Part shown: positions 13,673 to 34,304 of the stretch, in pieces
Numbering within the stretch: the stretch's first letter is position 1
How the letters are laid out: each line of letters begins with the position of its first letter
Source: a virus
IMG/VR virus record: IMGVR_UViG_3300008116_003782
Span: 1-36,321 of that record
Reading direction: 5' to 3' (one strand)
DNA: 36,321 nt
Translations under genes and position numbers: made by a program
Notes under the pieces: model-generated
What the model was told of the DNA's origin: nothing
What the model saw: only the letters and a program-made list of their open reading frames with translations
Database searches by the model: none

Positions 13673-14618
13673 ATCTTTTGTGCATAGTGAAAATTTAATA
13701 GACCTGTACCCAGATTTATTTTATAGGAACTTATCTTCTTTAAATTATAATGCTCCAAACGATAACTTAAAAAATCCTAAAGATGTTCCGCCTCCAATTT
13801 ACATGCAAAATGATAAAATATTAAAAATAGAATATAAAATAAATTCAGACTTCTATAGATCAGAAAACTTTATAGATCCAGCAGATATTCTTATACTTGG
13901 ATGCTCTCAAACTTATGGATATGGAATGATTGATGACTTTACTTGGCCACATATTTTATCAAAAAAATTAAATACTAATTTTGCTAGACTTGCTCTAGGC
14001 GGTGACTCATTACAAGGTCAAGTAATAAAGGCATTTGAATATTTTAATAAAATTGGAAAGCCAAAGTTAATAGTTGCAACATTTCCAATTTTTAGAGTAG
14101 AGTTTCCAAATATAGAAAATTATTTTGAACCTAATTTTAATAACATAAAAAAAGATACAAAAGAAACAATTCTTTCTGTTAACATAAGAAATAGAGAAAG
14201 ACCAAAATATGCAAAGTCACCATACAACGCAGAAAGCATTCTTCCAGGAGAATATGCAATTTTTATTAGTTTTATTTTTATTAAAATGTTAGAAGAATAT
14301 TGTAATTCAAATGATATAAAATTAATTTGGAATTTTTGGGAAGATAATAATAGCTTGATATATTCATATATTAAAAATAATAATACAATTAGTCATATTT
14401 TAAATAATTATTTTGCAGGAAGACCTGAAGATATAACAAAGTCATTTCAAAATCAATCAACTATTCATTTAAAATGCCACAAAGAGTATAGCGAACACCC
14501 TTTATTTAATAATGCTGCTGATTTTAGCGAAAATAGTTTTGGTCATTGGGGGATACATAAACATATACATATGGCTGAAGAATTCTATACAGAAATAATA
14601 AATAGACAACTATTTTAG
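13653..14618 (+). CDS. SGNH/GDSL-like hydrolase (paralogue B)
   Basis: A 321-aa relative of the SGNH protein at 11379. ILILGCSQTYGYGM replaces GGCSFTFG, ARLALGGDSLQG aligns with NLGYPGASVL, and FGHWGIHKHIHMAEEF matches AHWGVHMHTHYAEYF. The catalytic Ser and C-terminal His are retained, but the Asp before the His is not obvious (SFGHWG). The start overlaps the carbamoyltransferase end by 20 nt. The duplicated flanking genes suggest both act on the product of the carbamoyltransferase or on its acceptor. Confidence 0.72.
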   Translation: MVKKFPKSFVHSENLIDLYPDLFYRNLSSLNYNAPNDNLKNPKDVPPPIYMQNDKILKIEYKINSDFYRSENFIDPADILILGCSQTYGYGMIDDFTWPHILSKKLNTNFARLALGGDSLQGQVIKAFEYFNKIGKPKLIVATFPIFRVEFPNIENYFEPNFNNIKKDTKETILSVNIRNRERPKYAKSPYNAESILPGEYAIFISFIFIKMLEEYCNSNDIKLIWNFWEDNNSLIYSYIKNNNTISHILNNYFAGRPEDITKSFQNQSTIHLKCHKEYSEHPLFNNAADFSENSFGHWGIHKHIHMAEEFYTEIINRQLF

Positions 14619-14631
14619 CCTATGATATAAT
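14603..14631 (+). promoter_or_regulatory. promoter of hsp20
   Basis: TAGACA (14603-14608), 17-nt spacer and TATAAT (14626-14631) preceded by TG (14623-14624), making an extended -10. The expected start is about 14638. The -35 lies within the end of the upstream gene. Confidence 0.75.
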
Positions 14632-14637
14632 ATATAT

Positions 14638-14688
14638 AGGTCGCCGAATGGGACCTATATTAACTTATTCGCTTGAAGGAGGAATAAA
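14638..14688 (+). promoter_or_regulatory. ROSE-like RNA thermometer in the hsp20 leader (predicted)
   Basis: The ~51-nt leader folds by eye into two hairpins. The first is AGGTC/GACCT (extendable to 9 bp in DNA, 14634-14642 with 14652-14660). The second pairs TTATTC (14665-14670) with GAATAA (14682-14687), leaves G14671 bulged, and then pairs CTT (14672-14674) with GAG (14679-14681) around a GAAG loop. The whole Shine-Dalgarno AAGGAGG is buried. UCGCU opposite AGGA with an unpaired G is the signature of ROSE thermometers, which in proteobacteria control small heat-shock genes such as ibpA. Translation would be blocked until the weak stem melts. Confidence 0.7.
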
Positions 14689-15114
14689 ATGGTAAGTACA
14701 TTGTCTATGGATCTTTTTAAAGATCCATTTTTTATTGGTTGGGATTCTTTTTTTAAAGAAATTGAAAGCCTTCCAAAAAACACATCAAACTATCCACCAT
14801 ATAACTTAATCAAATTTACTGATGATACTTATATGATTGAACTAGCATTAGCTGGATTCTCTAAGGATGACATTGAAGTATCTCAAGAAAAAAATAATTT
14901 AACTATCAAAGGAAATATTGAAGAAGATGGTCAAGAAAAATATATCCATAAGGGTATAGCAACCAGAAACTTTACAAGAACTTTTTCTCTTGCAGAAAAT
15001 ATTGAGATTAAGCATGTTACATGGATGAATGGTATTTTGGCTGTTTCTTTATTTAAAAACACCCCAGAAGATCAAAAACCAAAAACATTTAAGATAAAAG
15101 ATATAAACGACTGA
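14689..15114 (+). CDS. hsp20: small heat-shock protein, IbpA/Hsp20 type
   Basis: A 141-aa ATP-independent holdase. The alpha-crystallin domain spans about residues 35-125: YPPYNLIKFTDDTYMIELAL, AGFSKDDIEV, LTIKG, GIATRNFTRTFSLAENIEI and GILAVSLF, followed by the C-terminal tail. The RNF...FSLAENI stretch is especially like IbpA and like the Hsp20s of T4-like cyanophages. It probably protects phage or host proteins during infection. The leader looks like a temperature-responsive riboregulator. Its stop TGA forms the TG of the next extended -10 promoter. Confidence 0.93.
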   Translation: MVSTLSMDLFKDPFFIGWDSFFKEIESLPKNTSNYPPYNLIKFTDDTYMIELALAGFSKDDIEVSQEKNNLTIKGNIEEDGQEKYIHKGIATRNFTRTFSLAENIEIKHVTWMNGILAVSLFKNTPEDQKPKTFKIKDIND

Positions 15115-15120
15115 TATAAT
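15112..15120 (+). promoter_or_regulatory. extended -10 promoter upstream of the structured leader
   Basis: TGATATAAT: TG at 15112-15113, TATAAT at 15115-15120. The TG comes from the stop codon of hsp20. No good -35 is seen at 17 nt. The expected start (about 15126-15127) coincides with the first base pair of the structured leader. Confidence 0.7.
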
Positions 15121-15125
15121 ATAAG

Positions 15126-15218
15126 TCTGCACCCCGTCACTGGGGAGTCGCAGATACCGTCGGGGGAGACAGCGACATTAAATAACTGGATGGACCTGAG
15201 CATGTCTAGAAACTGCTC
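15126..15218 (+). ncRNA. GC-rich structured leader RNA (riboswitch-like or stable 5' element), family unknown
   Basis: Three stems can be drawn. P1 is TCTGC (15126-15130) with GCAGA (15150-15154), enclosing CCCC (15132-15135) with GGGG (15142-15145). P2 is GTCG (15159-15162) with CGAC (15173-15176). P3 is GAGCA (15198-15202) with TGCTC (15214-15218). Bases 15126-15176 contain 34 G/C of 51, far above the AT-rich surroundings. A second G-run at 15162-15166 could pair with the same CCCC, giving two competing folds. It ends 20 nt before the ATG of the thermonuclease. I do not recognise a known riboswitch class. Confidence 0.6.
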
Positions 15219-15237
15219 TTTAAATTTAAGGAGAAAT

Positions 15238-15852: not shown

Positions 15853-15893
15853 TGATATAATTCCAATGTAACAAAAATTTTGTTGCATTGGAG
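15853..15893 (+). promoter_or_regulatory. extended -10 promoter with 13-bp hairpin reaching into the ribosome binding site
   Basis: TGATATAAT (TG 15853-15854, TATAAT 15856-15861) is followed by a near-perfect inverted repeat: 15863-15875 pairs with 15879-15891 (13 bp, one T-G pair, 3-nt loop). The last two bases of the 3' arm are the first GG of the Shine-Dalgarno GGAG (15890-15893). It could act as a DNA operator over the start site or as an RNA stem modulating translation. Confidence 0.65.
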
Positions 15894-15899
15894 AACCAA

Positions 15900-18404
15900 T
15901 TGAGTAGAAAGTTAAAATACTTTTTAGCTAGCCTTTTTGTAACAGGTTGGCTATTTTTTATTGGGCCAAGTTATGCGTGGGCTACAGAGCAGGGCGGACA
16001 AGAACAGGTAATAGTAAGCCCAGCGCAACAAGCAGTAAATAATGCTCTTGGTATAGCTAACACAGAAGTTCAACAAGCTATTGCAGCAACGGACTCATCT
16101 ACAGCACTAGTATCAGTGGCACAAACAGAGTTGTCTCAAGCTCAAACAGCAGTAACACAAGTATCTCAAAGTATTTCAATGGCCCAAACAGCAATTAATT
16201 TAGTTGATACTGCAACTACTACGATAAATAATATTAATATAGTAGCAACACCAACAGATCAAAGCTCTCAAATAGTTCAAGATGCTAAATTAACTATTAC
16301 ATCTGCTCAAACATCAATAGATAGCATTACTGTTACCGCAGCACAGACTGAAATATCTCAAGTCACTGCAGCAAAAACAGCAGCCTCTACAGCACAGGCA
16401 ACTGCTCAAACAGAATTAACTCAGGCAAATATTGCTATTGATAATGCTCAAACAGCAGTAAATAATTTACAGGCAACTATTGGAACAACAACAAACGTTT
16501 TGGCTGGCGTAGATGACGCTGGAGTAAGAATGACTTTACCTTTTGGAATGCAAATGGGCGGAACAGTTTATAATGATGTTTATGTAGGATCAAATGCAAC
16601 AATAACATTTGGTGTCGATCAGGGATGGGTTTATTATCAAACTCCAGATGCCCCATCAGTTTCTATTGCTGGATGGGACTGGACAACTTGGAGTACAGGA
16701 ACTGGAATTACATATTCAACTACTGGAACAAGTTTAGACATTGCTTGGGATTTAAGGCCTTATCCACAACAAGATGCTTCTACACAAATGGTTCAAATTA
16801 GATTCAATGCAGATGTAAATCCAAATGATGGTGCATGGATGGCAAATGTAACAGCAGTTGGACCAATACCAGGCGGAGCAAGATTTAATTATAGAGAAAC
16901 AAATAATGGCACAATTACTGAAATTACAGACACTAATACTGGTACTGGATTTTCTGGACAAATTAGTCAGGGTCCATCATTTACTCCATATGTAGATCCA
17001 AATACATCAACCGTTCAAGCAGCAGTAGATGCAGCTAATGCCACTATTACACAATTAAACCAAAGCTTGAGTCCAGTTGTTTCACAAAATACTTTAAATA
17101 CTTCTGTAATAAATTCTATTAATACAAATTCTTTAACAAATACTTTAAATTCAGCACTATCAACAAAAACATCATTGCAATCAACACTAAATACTAAGTC
17201 TAATCAACTTATAACCGTTATTAATAATAATATACCAACTCCTGCGCCAATAATATCTCAAGCAGTAGTAGATGGCACAACAGTAACTGTTACACCAGAA
17301 TTGCCTTCTGGATATACTCCAAACACATGGTTTTATCAAGTAATTACTGACGACCCAACAGCAGAAAATCCTTATGCTGGTGGGACATATAATACAGACG
17401 GCGCACCAGAATCTATTCAATTAACTGGATTAACAGAAGGTGCTTCATATACAATTAGAATTGCAAACTGGTCTGGTCCAGTAAGCCAGTATGTTGAAAC
17501 TATTATTACAATTCCACAAGAAGAAATAATTAGTGTGCCGTCACAGCCATCTTACATAACACCAATAGAACCAATTATTGATGAACCAATTATTGATGAA
17601 CCAGTAGTTGATGAGCCAGTTATTGACGAACCTGTTATAGAAGAGCCAATAATAGAAGAACCAGTAGTTGATGAGCCAGTTATTGACGAACCAGCAGTAG
17701 AGGAGCAAGAATTAACTGTTGAAGAGGCTCAAGAGGTTGTTAGTGATTTAATTGAAGATGGAAATTTAACAGCTGAGGATGCCGATGCAATATTAGAATT
17801 AATTTCTGAAGGCGGAGAAGTTTCAGAAGAGGTTATTTCTGAGATATCTTCTACATTGTCTAAAGGCGGATTGTCTATAGAAGAATCTGAATTAATTACA
17901 GAAATACTTTTTGCAGATGGAGAAATTACTGTAAATGAAGTTGTTAATTTATCTGAAGCATTATCTGAAGATGGTGTTCTGACATTAGCAGAAAAAGATT
18001 TAGTTGCAGATGTTTTAGTTACATCAGCAGAAGGTGCTCCAGTAGAAGCAGCAGCAATTGAAGCAGCGGGCCTTGAATACCGAGACCTACCACCATCAAT
18101 TCCAGTAGAAGTTAGAGAAGATGCTAGCGGTAATCCAGTAGTTATTACAGCAGAAGTCGCCTCAGCATTACTCACGTTAGAATCTCCAGCAGCACTTGTT
18201 AATGCAATTGCTGGATGCTTTAATCCAGATGAAGCAATTGAAGGATTAACTGAAGAACAAAAGTGTGAGTTGAGTAAAGCATTAGCAAATATTGGAGCAG
18301 ATATGTCTCCACAAGAAAGACAAGATGCTAAAGAAGTTTTAGTTGCAGCAATTTTAGTTGGTCAAGTAATACTTGGTAGTACAATAATGAGAATAAGGGG
18401 GTAA
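15900..18404 (+). CDS. large exported protein with coiled coil, Fn3-like domain, EP-rich repeats and C-terminal hydrophobic segment
   Basis: An 834-aa protein starting at TTG 15900 (GGAG six bases upstream). The upstream in-frame TTG at 15888 lies in a hairpin arm. Residues ~1-30 form a Sec signal peptide (basic start, hydrophobic FLASLFVTGWLFFIG, then YAWA). Residues ~40-190 are Ala/Thr/Gln-rich and helical, with recurrent AQTA. Next comes a Gly/Trp-rich beta domain (~200-350), more helix, and a fibronectin type III-like domain (~455-540). The EP[IV][IV][DE] repeat tract (~555-605) leads into helical D/E-rich repeats. A hydrophobic stretch (VLVAAILVGQVILGST) ends the protein. It could be a host-surface protein or an adhesin. 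Family not recognised. Confidence 0.85.
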   Translation: MSRKLKYFLASLFVTGWLFFIGPSYAWATEQGGQEQVIVSPAQQAVNNALGIANTEVQQAIAATDSSTALVSVAQTELSQAQTAVTQVSQSISMAQTAINLVDTATTTINNINIVATPTDQSSQIVQDAKLTITSAQTSIDSITVTAAQTEISQVTAAKTAASTAQATAQTELTQANIAIDNAQTAVNNLQATIGTTTNVLAGVDDAGVRMTLPFGMQMGGTVYNDVYVGSNATITFGVDQGWVYYQTPDAPSVSIAGWDWTTWSTGTGITYSTTGTSLDIAWDLRPYPQQDASTQMVQIRFNADVNPNDGAWMANVTAVGPIPGGARFNYRETNNGTITEITDTNTGTGFSGQISQGPSFTPYVDPNTSTVQAAVDAANATITQLNQSLSPVVSQNTLNTSVINSINTNSLTNTLNSALSTKTSLQSTLNTKSNQLITVINNNIPTPAPIISQAVVDGTTVTVTPELPSGYTPNTWFYQVITDDPTAENPYAGGTYNTDGAPESIQLTGLTEGASYTIRIANWSGPVSQYVETIITIPQEEIISVPSQPSYITPIEPIIDEPIIDEPVVDEPVIDEPVIEEPIIEEPVVDEPVIDEPAVEEQELTVEEAQEVVSDLIEDGNLTAEDADAILELISEGGEVSEEVISEISSTLSKGGLSIEESELITEILFADGEITVNEVVNLSEALSEDGVLTLAEKDLVADVLVTSAEGAPVEAAAIEAAGLEYRDLPPSIPVEVREDASGNPVVITAEVASALLTLESPAALVNAIAGCFNPDEAIEGLTEEQKCELSKALANIGADMSPQERQDAKEVLVAAILVGQVILGSTIMRIRG
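17568..17706 (+). repeat. in-frame tandem 15-nt repeats encoding E-P-x-x-D/E
   Basis: About nine 15-nt units encode the pentapeptide pattern EP(I/V)(I/V)(D/E). A 35-nt stretch at 17598-17632 recurs identically at 17658-17692, exactly 60 nt later, indicating recent duplication of a four-unit block. The product would be an extended acidic Pro-rich spacer. Confidence 0.85.
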
Positions 18405-20689: not shown

Positions 20690-20920
20690 ATGATTCATTT
20701 AAATGAAACTGGTGTTGACGTATTTATTAATAGATACAACACAATTATAAATAAAGCATATTGGAATAATTACGATTTAATTATTTGGAAAAAGAATCAT
20801 AACGGATTTTTTAATATAAATGGATTATTTAATAAACACTGGGGAATAGCAGATAAAGTATCTGTAAACAATAAAGGAATGTGGGTTCTACCTAAACAAT
20901 ATGTCAAATATTTTAAATGA
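20690..20920 (+). CDS. hypothetical protein, first gene of the whiB operon
   Basis: A 76-aa protein rich in Asn, Trp and aromatic residues (WGIADKVSVNNKGMWVLP). The RBS AAGGA lies upstream of ATG 20690. It overlaps the whiB-like gene by 20 nt. Family not recognised. Confidence 0.72.
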   Translation: MIHLNETGVDVFINRYNTIINKAYWNNYDLIIWKKNHNGFFNINGLFNKHWGIADKVSVNNKGMWVLPKQYVKYFK

Positions 20921-21212
20921 TCTAGGGGTAGATAAAGACGATTTAGACTGGTGGCACCTTGCAGTTTGCAGAGGCATGGACACCAATTTATTTTATGATA
21001 AATATGAAAACGATTCTAAAATTGCAAAAAATATTGATGAAGCATGTTTAGCATGTCCTGTTATAGCAATGTGCTATAAATCTGGATCAGATAACAATGA
21101 GTATGGCGTATGGGGCGGAGTTTATTTAAACTCTGGGACAATTGATAAAACTAGAAATTTACATAAAACAAGTGACACATGGAAAAGATTGAAAAAGAAA
21201 AATGTTTATTGA
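20901..21212 (+). CDS. WhiB-like [4Fe-4S] transcription factor
   Basis: A 103-aa WhiB-family protein. The four cluster ligands are Cys23, Cys49, Cys52 and Cys58 (C-X25-C-X2-C-X5-C), followed by the family turn GVWGG at ~69-73 and a basic C-terminal tail (WKRLKKKN) for DNA contact. WhiB proteins bind RNA polymerase sigma factor region 4 and redirect transcription in actinobacteria; phage copies can displace the host protein. It is the best marker of the host group in this window. Confidence 0.93.
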   Translation: MSNILNDLGVDKDDLDWWHLAVCRGMDTNLFYDKYENDSKIAKNIDEACLACPVIAMCYKSGSDNNEYGVWGGVYLNSGTIDKTRNLHKTSDTWKRLKKKNVY

Positions 21213-23295: not shown

Positions 23296-24429
23296 ATGAA
23301 TAAAAAACTAATAAGTGCAGTATCAGTAATATCACTACTATCTACTTTATTTCTTGCTGTAGAGGCTAAGGCGGAACAACAAGCCCCTACAGTAGCTATT
23401 TTAGACACAGCATTAGATACTTCATTACCAATTTTTAAAGATAAAATTGTATATGAGGTTTGTGTATTAGAATGGGCCTCATGTCCAAATGGACAAAAGT
23501 ATATGGAAGGAACAGGTTCTGCAGTTCTTCCTTCAAATATAATTTCTAAAAATGGGTTTGATCACGGAACTCAAATGGCATCTGTTGCTGTTAGAACTAA
23601 TCCGAATATTAAAATTGTTTTTATTAGAATTATTGGAAATACTCCTTCTGGTGCAAGACAATCTACTGGTGAAACTGGTGTATCTTTAGCGCTTAAATGG
23701 GTATTAGATAATCAATCTAAATTTAATATTCAAGCAGTTGCTATGTCTCAGGCAAATCACAATATACTAACTACTTTAACAGACTATTGTCCAGCAAGCA
23801 CAATGTTGCGTGGAGTAATTTCTTCTCTTGTATCTTCTGGTACTCCTGTATTTTTTGCAGCAGGAAACATGAGAGATCTTTTTAGATTATCTTGGCCAGC
23901 GTGCATTAATGATTCAATATCAATTGGTATGGCCGATCAATATGAACAAATAGATAATTATTCTAATTTTGATAAAGATAGATTAGATTTTTATGCTATA
24001 GGTAATATGCAAGTTGTCAATCCAGGAGGATCAATAAAATATGCTACAGGATCTTCTATCTCTACACAAGTTGCTGCTGCAATGTGGATTAATATGAAGT
24101 CACAGTTAAAGTCATATGATGAAGTTATTAATAAATTAAATGCTATCTCTAAACCAATTAAAGGTGCAAGAGGTCAATATGGTAAACTTATACCGTCATC
24201 TCAAACTCCAATTGAGGCTCAAGTGCCAGCAACAAGTACCGTAACAACAATACCAGCTCCTGTAACAAAAACTGCAGAGCAGATTGCTGCGGAGAAAAAA
24301 GCTGCTATAATAGCTGAAGCAAATAAAGCAATTGCTGCTGCTGAGGCTCAATATCAAGCAGAGGTTAAGGCTGCTGCTGATAAGCTTGCTGCTATTAAAT
24401 TAGAATGGGCTAAAAAAATAAATGGCTAA
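23296..24429 (+). CDS. secreted subtilisin-like serine protease (S8 family)
   Basis: A 377-aa protein with a Sec signal peptide (residues ~1-26, MNKKL then a hydrophobic core, ending AKA). The complete catalytic triad is Asp37 (VAILDTALD), His90 (FDHGTQMAS) and Ser254 (TGSSISTQ, a variant of GTSMA), with oxyanion Asn191 in FFAAGN. The last ~70 residues are a Thr/Pro linker and an Ala-rich coiled coil (AAEAQYQAEVKAAADKLAAIK). No separate pro-domain is evident. It would act outside the host cytoplasm, perhaps trimming surface proteins. Secreted proteases are rare in phages. Confidence 0.9.
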   Translation: MNKKLISAVSVISLLSTLFLAVEAKAEQQAPTVAILDTALDTSLPIFKDKIVYEVCVLEWASCPNGQKYMEGTGSAVLPSNIISKNGFDHGTQMASVAVRTNPNIKIVFIRIIGNTPSGARQSTGETGVSLALKWVLDNQSKFNIQAVAMSQANHNILTTLTDYCPASTMLRGVISSLVSSGTPVFFAAGNMRDLFRLSWPACINDSISIGMADQYEQIDNYSNFDKDRLDFYAIGNMQVVNPGGSIKYATGSSISTQVAAAMWINMKSQLKSYDEVINKLNAISKPIKGARGQYGKLIPSSQTPIEAQVPATSTVTTIPAPVTKTAEQIAAEKKAAIIAEANKAIAAAEAQYQAEVKAAADKLAAIKLEWAKKING

Positions 24430-32267: not shown

Positions 32268-34304
32268 ATGAGCGACGCAAAATGTCCATTTACAGGAAAT
32301 AGTTTAAATAATAACGGAACATATAATAATGATTGGTGGCCTAATCAATTAGATTTATCTGGATTAAGAAAGCATTCAGAAAAATCTAACCCAATGTCAG
32401 ATGATTTTAATTACGCTAAAGAGTTTGAAAGTTTAGATCTTGATACTATTAAAAATGATATTAATCAGCTACTAACAACTTCTCAGGATTGGTGGCCTGC
32501 AGATTACGGAAACTATGGACCATTTTTTATTCGTATGTCCTGGCATTCAGCAGGAACATACAGAATTGCTGATGGGCGTGGAGGTGCTGGAGAAGGACTG
32601 CATAGATTTGCTCCACAAAATTCATGGCCAGACAATGGAAACTTAGACAAAGCTCGTCGTTTATTATGGCCAATTAAACAAAAATATGGAAAACAAATTT
32701 CATGGGCAGACCTTATGATTCTTGCTGGTAATGTGGCTCTTGAAAATATGGGATTCAAAACATTTGGTTTTGCTGGTGGTCGAGAAGATGTCTGGGAGTC
32801 TGATGATACATACTGGGGAACAGAAAAGGAATGGCTTGCAGATAATCGTTATAGCGGAAATCGTGAATTAGAAAATCCACTTGCTGCTGTTCAAATGGGT
32901 CTTATATATGTAAATCCAGAAGGACCTAACGGAGAGCCAGACCCAATTCTTTCTGCAAGAGATATTCGTGAAACATTTGCTCGTATGGCAATGAATGATG
33001 AAGAAACAGTTGCTTTAATTGCAGGAGGTCACGCATTTGGAAAAGCTCATGGCGCTGGTGACCCGTCTCATGTCGGATCTAATCCAGAATCTTCTCCAAT
33101 TGAAGACTTAGGTTTAGGATGGAAAAATTCATTTGGAAAAGGAAATGCAGAGGACACAATTACAAGTGGTATTGAAGGCGCATGGACCCCAACTCCAACT
33201 AAATGGGATAACTCATATCTTAAATTATTATTTAAATATGAATGGACTCAAACAAAAAGCCCTGCAGGAGCAACACAATGGATACCTACAGATGACTCTG
33301 CATCTAATTTAGTTCCAGATGCTCACATTGAAGGAAAATTCCATGCTCCAGTAATGACTACAGCAGATTTAGCACTTAGATTTGATCCAGAATATGAAAA
33401 AATTTCTAAAAGATTTTTAGAAGATTTTGATTATTTTTCAGATGTATTTGCCCGTGCATGGTTTAAGCTAACACACAGAGACATGGGACCTATTGCAAGA
33501 TATCTTGGCAAAGAAGTTCCTACAGAGGAATTAATTTGGCAGGATCCAGTAGGCTCATCCAATACAAATATTGATACAGATAGTATTAAGAATAAAATTA
33601 AATATTCTGATATTCCTATGTCTTATTTTATAGAAACTGCTTGGGCTTCTGCTTCTACCTTCCGTAAAACAGATAAGCGTGGCGGAGCAAATGGTGCCCG
33701 TATAAGATTACAACCACAAAATACATGGAAAGTAAATAATCAAGAGGTAATATCAAAGGTTATTAATTTCTTAGAATCTATTAAAGATGAGTCTAATGCA
33801 TCTATTGCCGACTTAATTGTTTTAGCAGGATGTGCTGCAATTGAAAAAATTGCGGAGGATCAAATTAAAGTTCCATTTACCCCAGGACGTGGAGACGCAA
33901 CACAAGAACAGACTGATGTTGAATCATTTGCAGTTCTTGAGCCAAAATTTGATGGATTTAGAAACTATGTACACAAGGATATTAATATACCAGAAGAGGT
34001 ATTGTTGGTAGAAAAAGCTAATCTTCTTGGCCTAACTCCAGTAGAATTAGTAGTATTGCTATCTGGTTTAAGATCATTAAACAATAATAAATTAAATAAT
34101 GATTACTTAATTCAGCTATTATCGTATACCAATGCTAATCAAGCAAACGGCATTCCTCGTGTAGACCTTATACTTGCATCTAATTCAGAACTTCGTGCAA
34201 TTGCCGAGGTGTATGCATCGGATGATGCTAAAGATAAATTTATTAAAGACTTCGTTTCAGCGTGGGACAAGGTTATGATGCTAGACCGATTTGACGTAAA
34301 ATAA
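32268..34304 (+). CDS. katG: catalase-peroxidase
   Basis: A 678-aa bifunctional catalase-peroxidase, slightly shorter than the usual ~730. Distal-side residues are Arg89, Trp92 and His93 (IRMSWHS). The Met-Tyr-Trp adduct can form from Trp92, Tyr214 ([10 protein letters not shown]) and Met240 (FARMAMND), 26 residues apart as in characterised KatG. Proximal His255 is in [12 protein letters not shown] and Trp305 in [11 protein letters not shown]. The arginine-switch region [10 protein letters not shown] and the full C-terminal domain are also present. It should detoxify H2O2 in the host during infection. Codon use is AT-rich like its neighbours, arguing against very recent transfer from the host. 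Confidence 0.95.

Follow-up and report, generated by a model that had tools for sequence, protein, structure and literature searches.

A ROSE-like two-hairpin leader on the hsp20 gene of a very likely actinophage recurs widely on phage hsp20 genes

The window, meaning the whole 36,321-base stretch of an IMG/VR virus record that was analyzed (32.8% GC; presumably of freshwater source), encodes an IbpA-like small heat-shock protein on its plus strand. This hsp20 gene (14689-15114, with its ATG at 14689) specifies 141 amino acids (PF00011, 1.5e-18; phrog_432, 1.8e-44), and in an alignment the product is 34% identical to E. coli IbpA, which bears out its previous description as IbpA-like. A WhiB domain (20949-21122, plus strand, within the open reading frame (ORF) 20901-21212; PF02467, 3.0e-12 and 1.2e-10) points to an actinobacterial host. 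Of the 16 records grouped with the window, itself among them, 15 have WhiB; in a second set, which takes in short contigs as well as phages of other groups, 6/11 records have it. Because it carries WhiB and shares 57% identity in its DNA polymerase with that of Streptomyces phages, the window virus is very likely an actinophage, as had been proposed.

Other genes of the window include a phage-encoded peroxidase (32268-34304; PF00141, 8.4e-69, in two stretches), perhaps of the catalase-peroxidase type, and a subtilase-family protease (23296-24429; PF00082, 1.2e-12). This one phage fragment also encodes three or more 2OG-Fe(II) oxygenases (PF13640; 10226-10870, 28557-29183 and 29404-30102). Tandem repeats of 15 bases (17553-17717) lie inside an 838-aa ORF (15888-18404) for which neither Pfam nor PHROG gives a match at E 0.001.

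Directly 5' of the hsp20 ATG, two hairpins, and two in total, span 14634-14687 on the plus strand. Hairpin 1 (14634-14660) has a bulged G at 14643 and an apical CC/GG; it is predicted by folding, and its stem covaries among relatives while the bulged G is kept. Hairpin 2 (14665-14687; UUAUUC [G] CUU gaag GAGGAAUAA, the bulged G in brackets) is of ROSE type and, in the predicted fold, masks the Shine-Dalgarno (SD) sequence AGGAGG (14677-14682). Its anti-SD core UCGCU (14669-14673; UYGCU in general form) lies opposite AGGA at 14680-14683, with G14671 bulged. Upstream of the hairpins, also on the plus strand, is a predicted extended -10 promoter element, TGATATAAT (14623-14631), and the transcription start site is likewise predicted. 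Both hairpins have in common a bulged G (14643, 14671) followed by C and a pyrimidine, and hairpin 1 retains this bulged G despite not masking the SD.

An earlier note on this DNA had placed a ROSE-type thermometer at 14638-14688, with the entire SD buried and a second hairpin upstream. The two-hairpin feature is present there, but it begins slightly upstream, at 14634; the second hairpin is hairpin 1; and UCGCU does face AGGA with one bulged G, but only four of the six SD bases are paired in the predicted fold, A14677 and G14678 being in the apical loop. ROSE elements are defined by U(U/C)GCU imperfectly paired with the SD in a 3' proximal hairpin (excerpts of PMC11182007 and PMC3669281). The window leader has this pairing, with G14671 unpaired; it has two hairpins (two to four are required), of which the last holds the SD; and by position it precedes a small heat-shock gene, which it would control. 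The ROSE-like element is real as an observation, and the label ROSE-type is sound as to anatomy, both for the core and for the second hairpin. The note described ROSE as established for proteobacterial small heat-shock genes; ROSE-like control has also been reported outside Proteobacteria, in Anabaena variabilis (PMC4166951, in excerpt).

The folding energy of a single leader is only modestly better than chance and is suggestive only. For the 63-nt leader the folding energy is -15.8 kcal/mol (z -1.99), with 6 of 200 shuffles as good; for an 85-nt stretch z is -2.60 (3/200 shuffles as good), and for a 36-nt stretch with hairpin 2 it is -1.73 (14/200). With shuffles doing this well, folding energy alone was rejected as proof of the element for being too weak. 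The question of chance was settled by conservation across relatives.

A viral scan with the window Hsp20 gave 458 relatives, of which the best 80 were kept; inspection by eye showed the two-hairpin layout in every one of the 80 as well as in the window. We aligned 41 distinct leaders with MAFFT. Five of the eight pairs of hairpin 1 change on both sides in this alignment, and the whole structure has 59 cells with both-side changes versus 19.6 in shuffles (0/500 shuffles as high). The covariation score is 0.469, which none of 500 shuffles reached, and controls with slid partners gave at most 0.161. Hairpin 2 shows one-sided changes only in the MAFFT alignment, in our opinion partly because its loop length varies and MAFFT loses register; RNAalifold, run on the same 41 leaders, predicted hairpin 1 and not hairpin 2. 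When 3' arms are swapped between leaders, the mean number of flanking pairs in hairpin 2 falls from 2.81 to 1.90 (largest value 2.08 of 200). As read from these sequences, covariation is strong for hairpin 1 and moderate for hairpin 2.

A strict descriptor (UYGCU plus all four core pairs, with the bulged G built in) was applied to 264 loci collected by protein similarity. These yielded 262 hsp20 ORFs (none passed the search at L142 and L147) and 155 distinct 60-nt leaders; for hsp20 and other ORFs alike, the best of several ATG starts was taken. The descriptor is found in 150 of the 155 distinct hsp20 leaders versus 43 of 985 distinct other ORFs at the same loci (21/985 when a flanking pair is added), the controls being six-frame ORFs of at least 100 aa that are not all real genes. 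The 150 include L508, which is DNA of E. coli ibpB; without it the count is 149/154. Among the 150, the core is UCGCU in 131 and UUGCU in 19, and its SD partner is AGGA in 99 and GGGA in 51. The pair adjoining the core is U-A in 79, C-G in 67, U-G in 2, G-C in 1 and A-U in 1. Hairpin 1 with its bulged G is present in 147/150 leaders versus 55/3000 mononucleotide shuffles. The leaders that lack the strict core are those of two Vibrio phages, in which no element was seen, PA5oct (UUGCG), SCTP-2 (CUGCC) and Syn10, for which the script used the wrong start and the covariance model described below matches the element at 35.5 bits. It had been asked whether relatives might keep the gene and lose the UCGCU/AGGA pairing; at 150 of 155 leaders, the pairing is conserved.

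The covariance model, R1, was built from 41 leaders of the window's kin. On its training loci it found the leader in 81/81 sources (40.5-81.6 bits; next best 14.3), and on further loci in 73/73 (42.7-72.8 bits; best off-target 18.1). A set of 68 others, left from 93 loci when near-duplicates were removed, gave 59 matches at E <= 0.01 and 5 weaker ones; a few contigs or leaders in the 73- and 68-locus sets overlap the R1 training material, for example L188 with L015. Ten of 13 further isolate leaders matched, eight of them at E <= 0.01 and up to 35.5 bits, and those of P-RSM1, S-CAM1 and SCTP-2 were missed. Patterns made from the RNA only, one of the window type and one of the cyanophage type, matched at least 240 loci. 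An hsp20 ORF lies 3' of the RNA in 232 of the 240 matches listed, and in the remaining 8 the contig ends within 12-76 bases. The leader alone is, in this sense, a sequence handle on the gene.

Across 61 genomes of the phylum of a Chitinophagaceae MAG, R1 matched two. One match, on contig CANGYR010000020.1 of that MAG (genome G017, locus L086), is an hsp20 with a phage leader; a bacterial origin was rejected for this single genome-contig match because the contig also carries WhiB, and it looks like a misbinned actinophage contig. The other (L511 in G031, 37.3 bits) adjoins a terminator-like hairpin, has no hsp20 among ORFs of at least 80 aa in its 3,059 bases and sits in a neighborhood that reads like an exbB/exbD cluster, and we took it as a false positive.

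In the phages collection, the window Hsp20 matches 506 records, of which 25 hsp20 regions were chosen. The strict descriptor is found in 20 of these, or 19 after removal of L508, an unverified record named Campylobacter phage A11a that was set aside as a phage example because its hsp20 and leader are E. coli ibpB, a contamination. The 19 are cyanophages, Pelagibacter phages and one Methylophilales phage; among the other records, one (Syn10) has the element by R1, two have variants and two are without it. Restriction of the element to actinophages was rejected, as isolate phages of other groups carry it, and the suggestion in the earlier note of a new host range in an actinophage proved too narrow for an element that is widespread on phage hsp20 (19 of 25 chosen records).

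A search with the Rfam ROSE models, which had been recommended as a check, returned no match in the window. At the gathering cut-off only a tRNA family scores there, and among 12 matches in 14500-14800 at E <= 10 none is ROSE, so that Rfam offers no proof of ROSE in the window even at E 10; one of these matches, freshwater-2 RNA (RF02980, 15.6 bits, E 4.8), was dropped as chance. The ROSE families RF00435, RF01832 and RF02523 stay below their gathering scores in the window and in every relative scanned. ROSE_3 (RF02523, cut-off 43 bits) matches at full length with E <= 1 in 5 of 37 relatives (Melnitz-2, 34.1 bits; L009, 32.5; S-SKS1, 27.9; P-RSM6, 23.7; P-RSM1, 21.8), and the other 32 have no ROSE match at this threshold; L020 (17.0 bits) and P-SSM3 (17.7 bits) score still lower. 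At E <= 10, ROSE_3 also matches 14/14 control genomes, none above the cut-off, and weak matches from that search therefore carry no meaning. As a positive control, E. coli ibpA was recognized by ROSE_2 at 100.4 bits.

ROSE_3, which we take to derive from short two-hairpin elements of the Pseudomonas ibpA type, resembles the phage leaders in its two hairpins with a bulged G in both and gives 17-34 bits in some related phages, but no phage leader reaches 43 bits and the window is unmatched. In the E. coli ibpA leader (ROSE_2, RF01832), too, a UCGCU/AGGA hairpin covers the SD of an IbpA gene, but R1 does not match it. In Pseudomonas, ibpA thermometers are 61-62-nt leaders of two hairpins with U(U/C)GCU over the SD, proven thermometers in which hairpin II melts and hairpin I stays closed, with 4.0- and 6.1-fold induction (excerpts of PMC3669281). 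The phage leaders share the approximate length, the two hairpins, the U(U/C)GCU facing the SD in the second, the stable first hairpin and the small heat-shock gene downstream. They differ from the Pseudomonas leaders described there in belonging to phage rather than bacterial chromosome genes, in their predicted sigma70-like extended -10 and in the GGGA partner of 51/150 leaders. We read the phage leaders as a branch of the short two-hairpin ROSE elements.

PMC11182007, in excerpt, gives only two or three RNA thermometers in phages, namely those of lambda cIII and SP-beta blyA and a sigma70 element of a Caudoviricetes. These are likewise temperature-sensing RNAs, proposed or shown, in phage genomes, but they act on other genes and are not described in that excerpt as ROSE on hsp20. 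In the open-licence literature searched we found no report of a ROSE element on phage hsp20, and neither 'thermometer' nor 'untranslated' occurs in the main text of PMC5028025 or PMC3827213 (in part), which deal with the small heat-shock proteins of cyanophages.

How might the leader work? Of the 138 distinct IMG/VR leaders that bear the strict hairpin (L148-L164 and the isolates not counted), 131 have the motif TGNTAYAAT 5' of the hairpins at a near-fixed distance, and 69 of the 131 also have a TTGN -35-like site. Because the extended -10 is at a near-fixed distance, control is probably exerted at translation, with the messenger made by a host-type polymerase. We consider it likely that the hsp20 leader is a cis-acting ROSE-type RNA switch that represses hsp20 translation until hairpin 2 opens. 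The predicted sigma70-like promoter (extended -10 at 14623) would start a leader of ~55-60 nt, in which hairpin 1 would be a stable scaffold and hairpin 2 would keep the SD in an imperfect helix (UYGCU plus the bulged G against AGGA), so that ribosomes load poorly. Heat, folding stress or some other loosening of the helix would open hairpin 2, and the Hsp20 chaperone could be made at once from existing messenger. By analogy with Pseudomonas ibpA (PMC3669281, in excerpt), translation would be off at low and on at high temperature. For the phage, the product may help virion proteins to fold, or may act as a chaperone for a host under stress from infection.

An alternative that we regard as quite possible, if somewhat short of probable, is that the leader is chiefly an operator for the phage Hsp20, which would bind it and repress its own translation until proteins that aggregate during infection titrate the Hsp20 away. 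The switch would then sense folding stress rather than temperature, and the two modes may act together. The precedent is E. coli IbpA, which represses its own translation via the 5' UTR and for which Arg93 is essential, even lysine being no substitute (excerpts of PMC10474464). In the window Hsp20, Arg93 aligns with Arg93 of E. coli IbpA and has the identical residue number, and Arg is present in 164/164 of the distinct phage proteins that could be read and whose leader has the strict hairpin (171 distinct proteins, 166 with the strict hairpin, less the truncated L164 and the E. coli IbpB contaminant, which has Gln). Five proteins come from leaders without the strict hairpin: Arg is found in Syn10 and SCTP-2 and Lys in PA5oct, and two Vibrio phages misfit the motif, PWH3a-P1 aligning Ser at this position. 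Those that depart from Arg are the two Vibrio phages without the element and PA5oct with its degenerate core UUGCG, which speaks for self-repression. So do hairpin 1, whose bulged G is kept while its stem covaries, something SD masking does not call for, and the element's retention in phages of marine hosts, where heat shock is, we infer, rare.

Against this, Hsp20 proteins of this class may simply all keep the Arg. There are few exceptions, two of which share 92% identity, and Arg also occurs in Syn10 and SCTP-2, where the strict descriptor fails (Syn10 having the element by R1). Binding of the phage Hsp20 to its leader is argued from analogy with E. coli IbpA. The gamma-proteobacterial and phage systems are alike in that a small heat-shock protein bearing Arg93 goes with a structured 5' UTR, but protein-RNA binding has been shown for IbpA (PMC10474464, in excerpt) and is proposed for the phage Hsp20. 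The Arg93 pattern is consistent with a cassette that regulates itself and senses aggregation, but kinship confounds it.

Calculated stabilities bear on the temperature range of the proposed switch. In two-state estimates, the free energy of hairpin 2 reaches zero at 63 °C in the window, 44 °C in L020 and 40 °C in HTVC103P, at 14 °C in L071, of the UUGCU type, and at 45 °C for the E. coli ibpA hairpin; hairpin 2 computes as weak in UUGCU-type leaders. Hairpin 2 of the window has -4.8 kcal/mol at 35 °C and hairpin 1 reaches zero at 86 °C, again as two-state estimates. The computed stability of the window's hairpin 2 (63 °C), greater than that of the E. coli ibpA hairpin, counts against a pure thermometer in the window. 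Leaders of the L020 type have as their minimum-energy fold a different hairpin, GCUU/GAGC, which competes with hairpin 2 and also covers part of the SD. A ViennaRNA temperature scan of SD accessibility showed no opening for the window (0.34 to 0.38) and a rise with temperature in L071 and PA5oct and not in most others; the scan was dropped because the E. coli ibpA control likewise failed to open.

A hairpin that stays closed over natural temperatures, as the window's is computed to do, could also be a static attenuator, the two hairpins setting a constant low level of translation with no signal involved. We think this unlikely: a static role does not need this particular imperfect helix, yet the bulged-G core is kept in 150/155 leaders, and the same core is heat-responsive in Pseudomonas (PMC3669281, in excerpt). 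That a chance hairpin happens to lie over an ordinary ribosome-binding site, as the modest lead of one leader's fold energy over shuffles would allow, we deem refuted by the covariation, the R1 matches and the contrast of 150/155 with 43/985.

If the ROSE-type switch works as we infer, nearly every phage hsp20 sampled comes with a ready-made switch. ROSE would then reach from bacterial genes to viruses of Actinobacteria, Cyanobacteria and SAR11, and it would become testable why phages carry chaperones and what a chaperone switch senses during infection. With slightly more doubt than belief, we go further and suggest that phages share a mobile cassette of hsp20 and ROSE leader under a host-type promoter, in which Hsp20 binds the leader via Arg93, and which measures misfolding in the infected cell (and heat) and releases chaperone for virion assembly as needed. 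Spread over actino-, cyano-, pelagi- and methylophages, such a cassette would be more widely distributed than any other known RNA thermometer or aggregation sensor of phages.

Two further RNA observations were made at these loci. In the interval between hsp20 and an SNase-like nuclease gene (15112-15236 of the window), a second TGATATAATATA precedes a leader that is structured and conserved (GTCTGCACCCCGTCACTGGGGAGTCGCAGA, then GGACCTGAGCAT...CTGCTC). Both arms of one of its stems change in L005 and L006 with pairing kept, no Rfam family matches the stretch at gathering, and it is possibly a new cis-acting RNA. Separately, the Rfam family Plastid-ycf2 (RF04354, cut-off 65.7) matches at 31-55 bits in L009, L011, L126, L134 and L171; because these matches fall antisense to phage tRNA genes, they suggest that the family overlaps tRNA antisense sequence.
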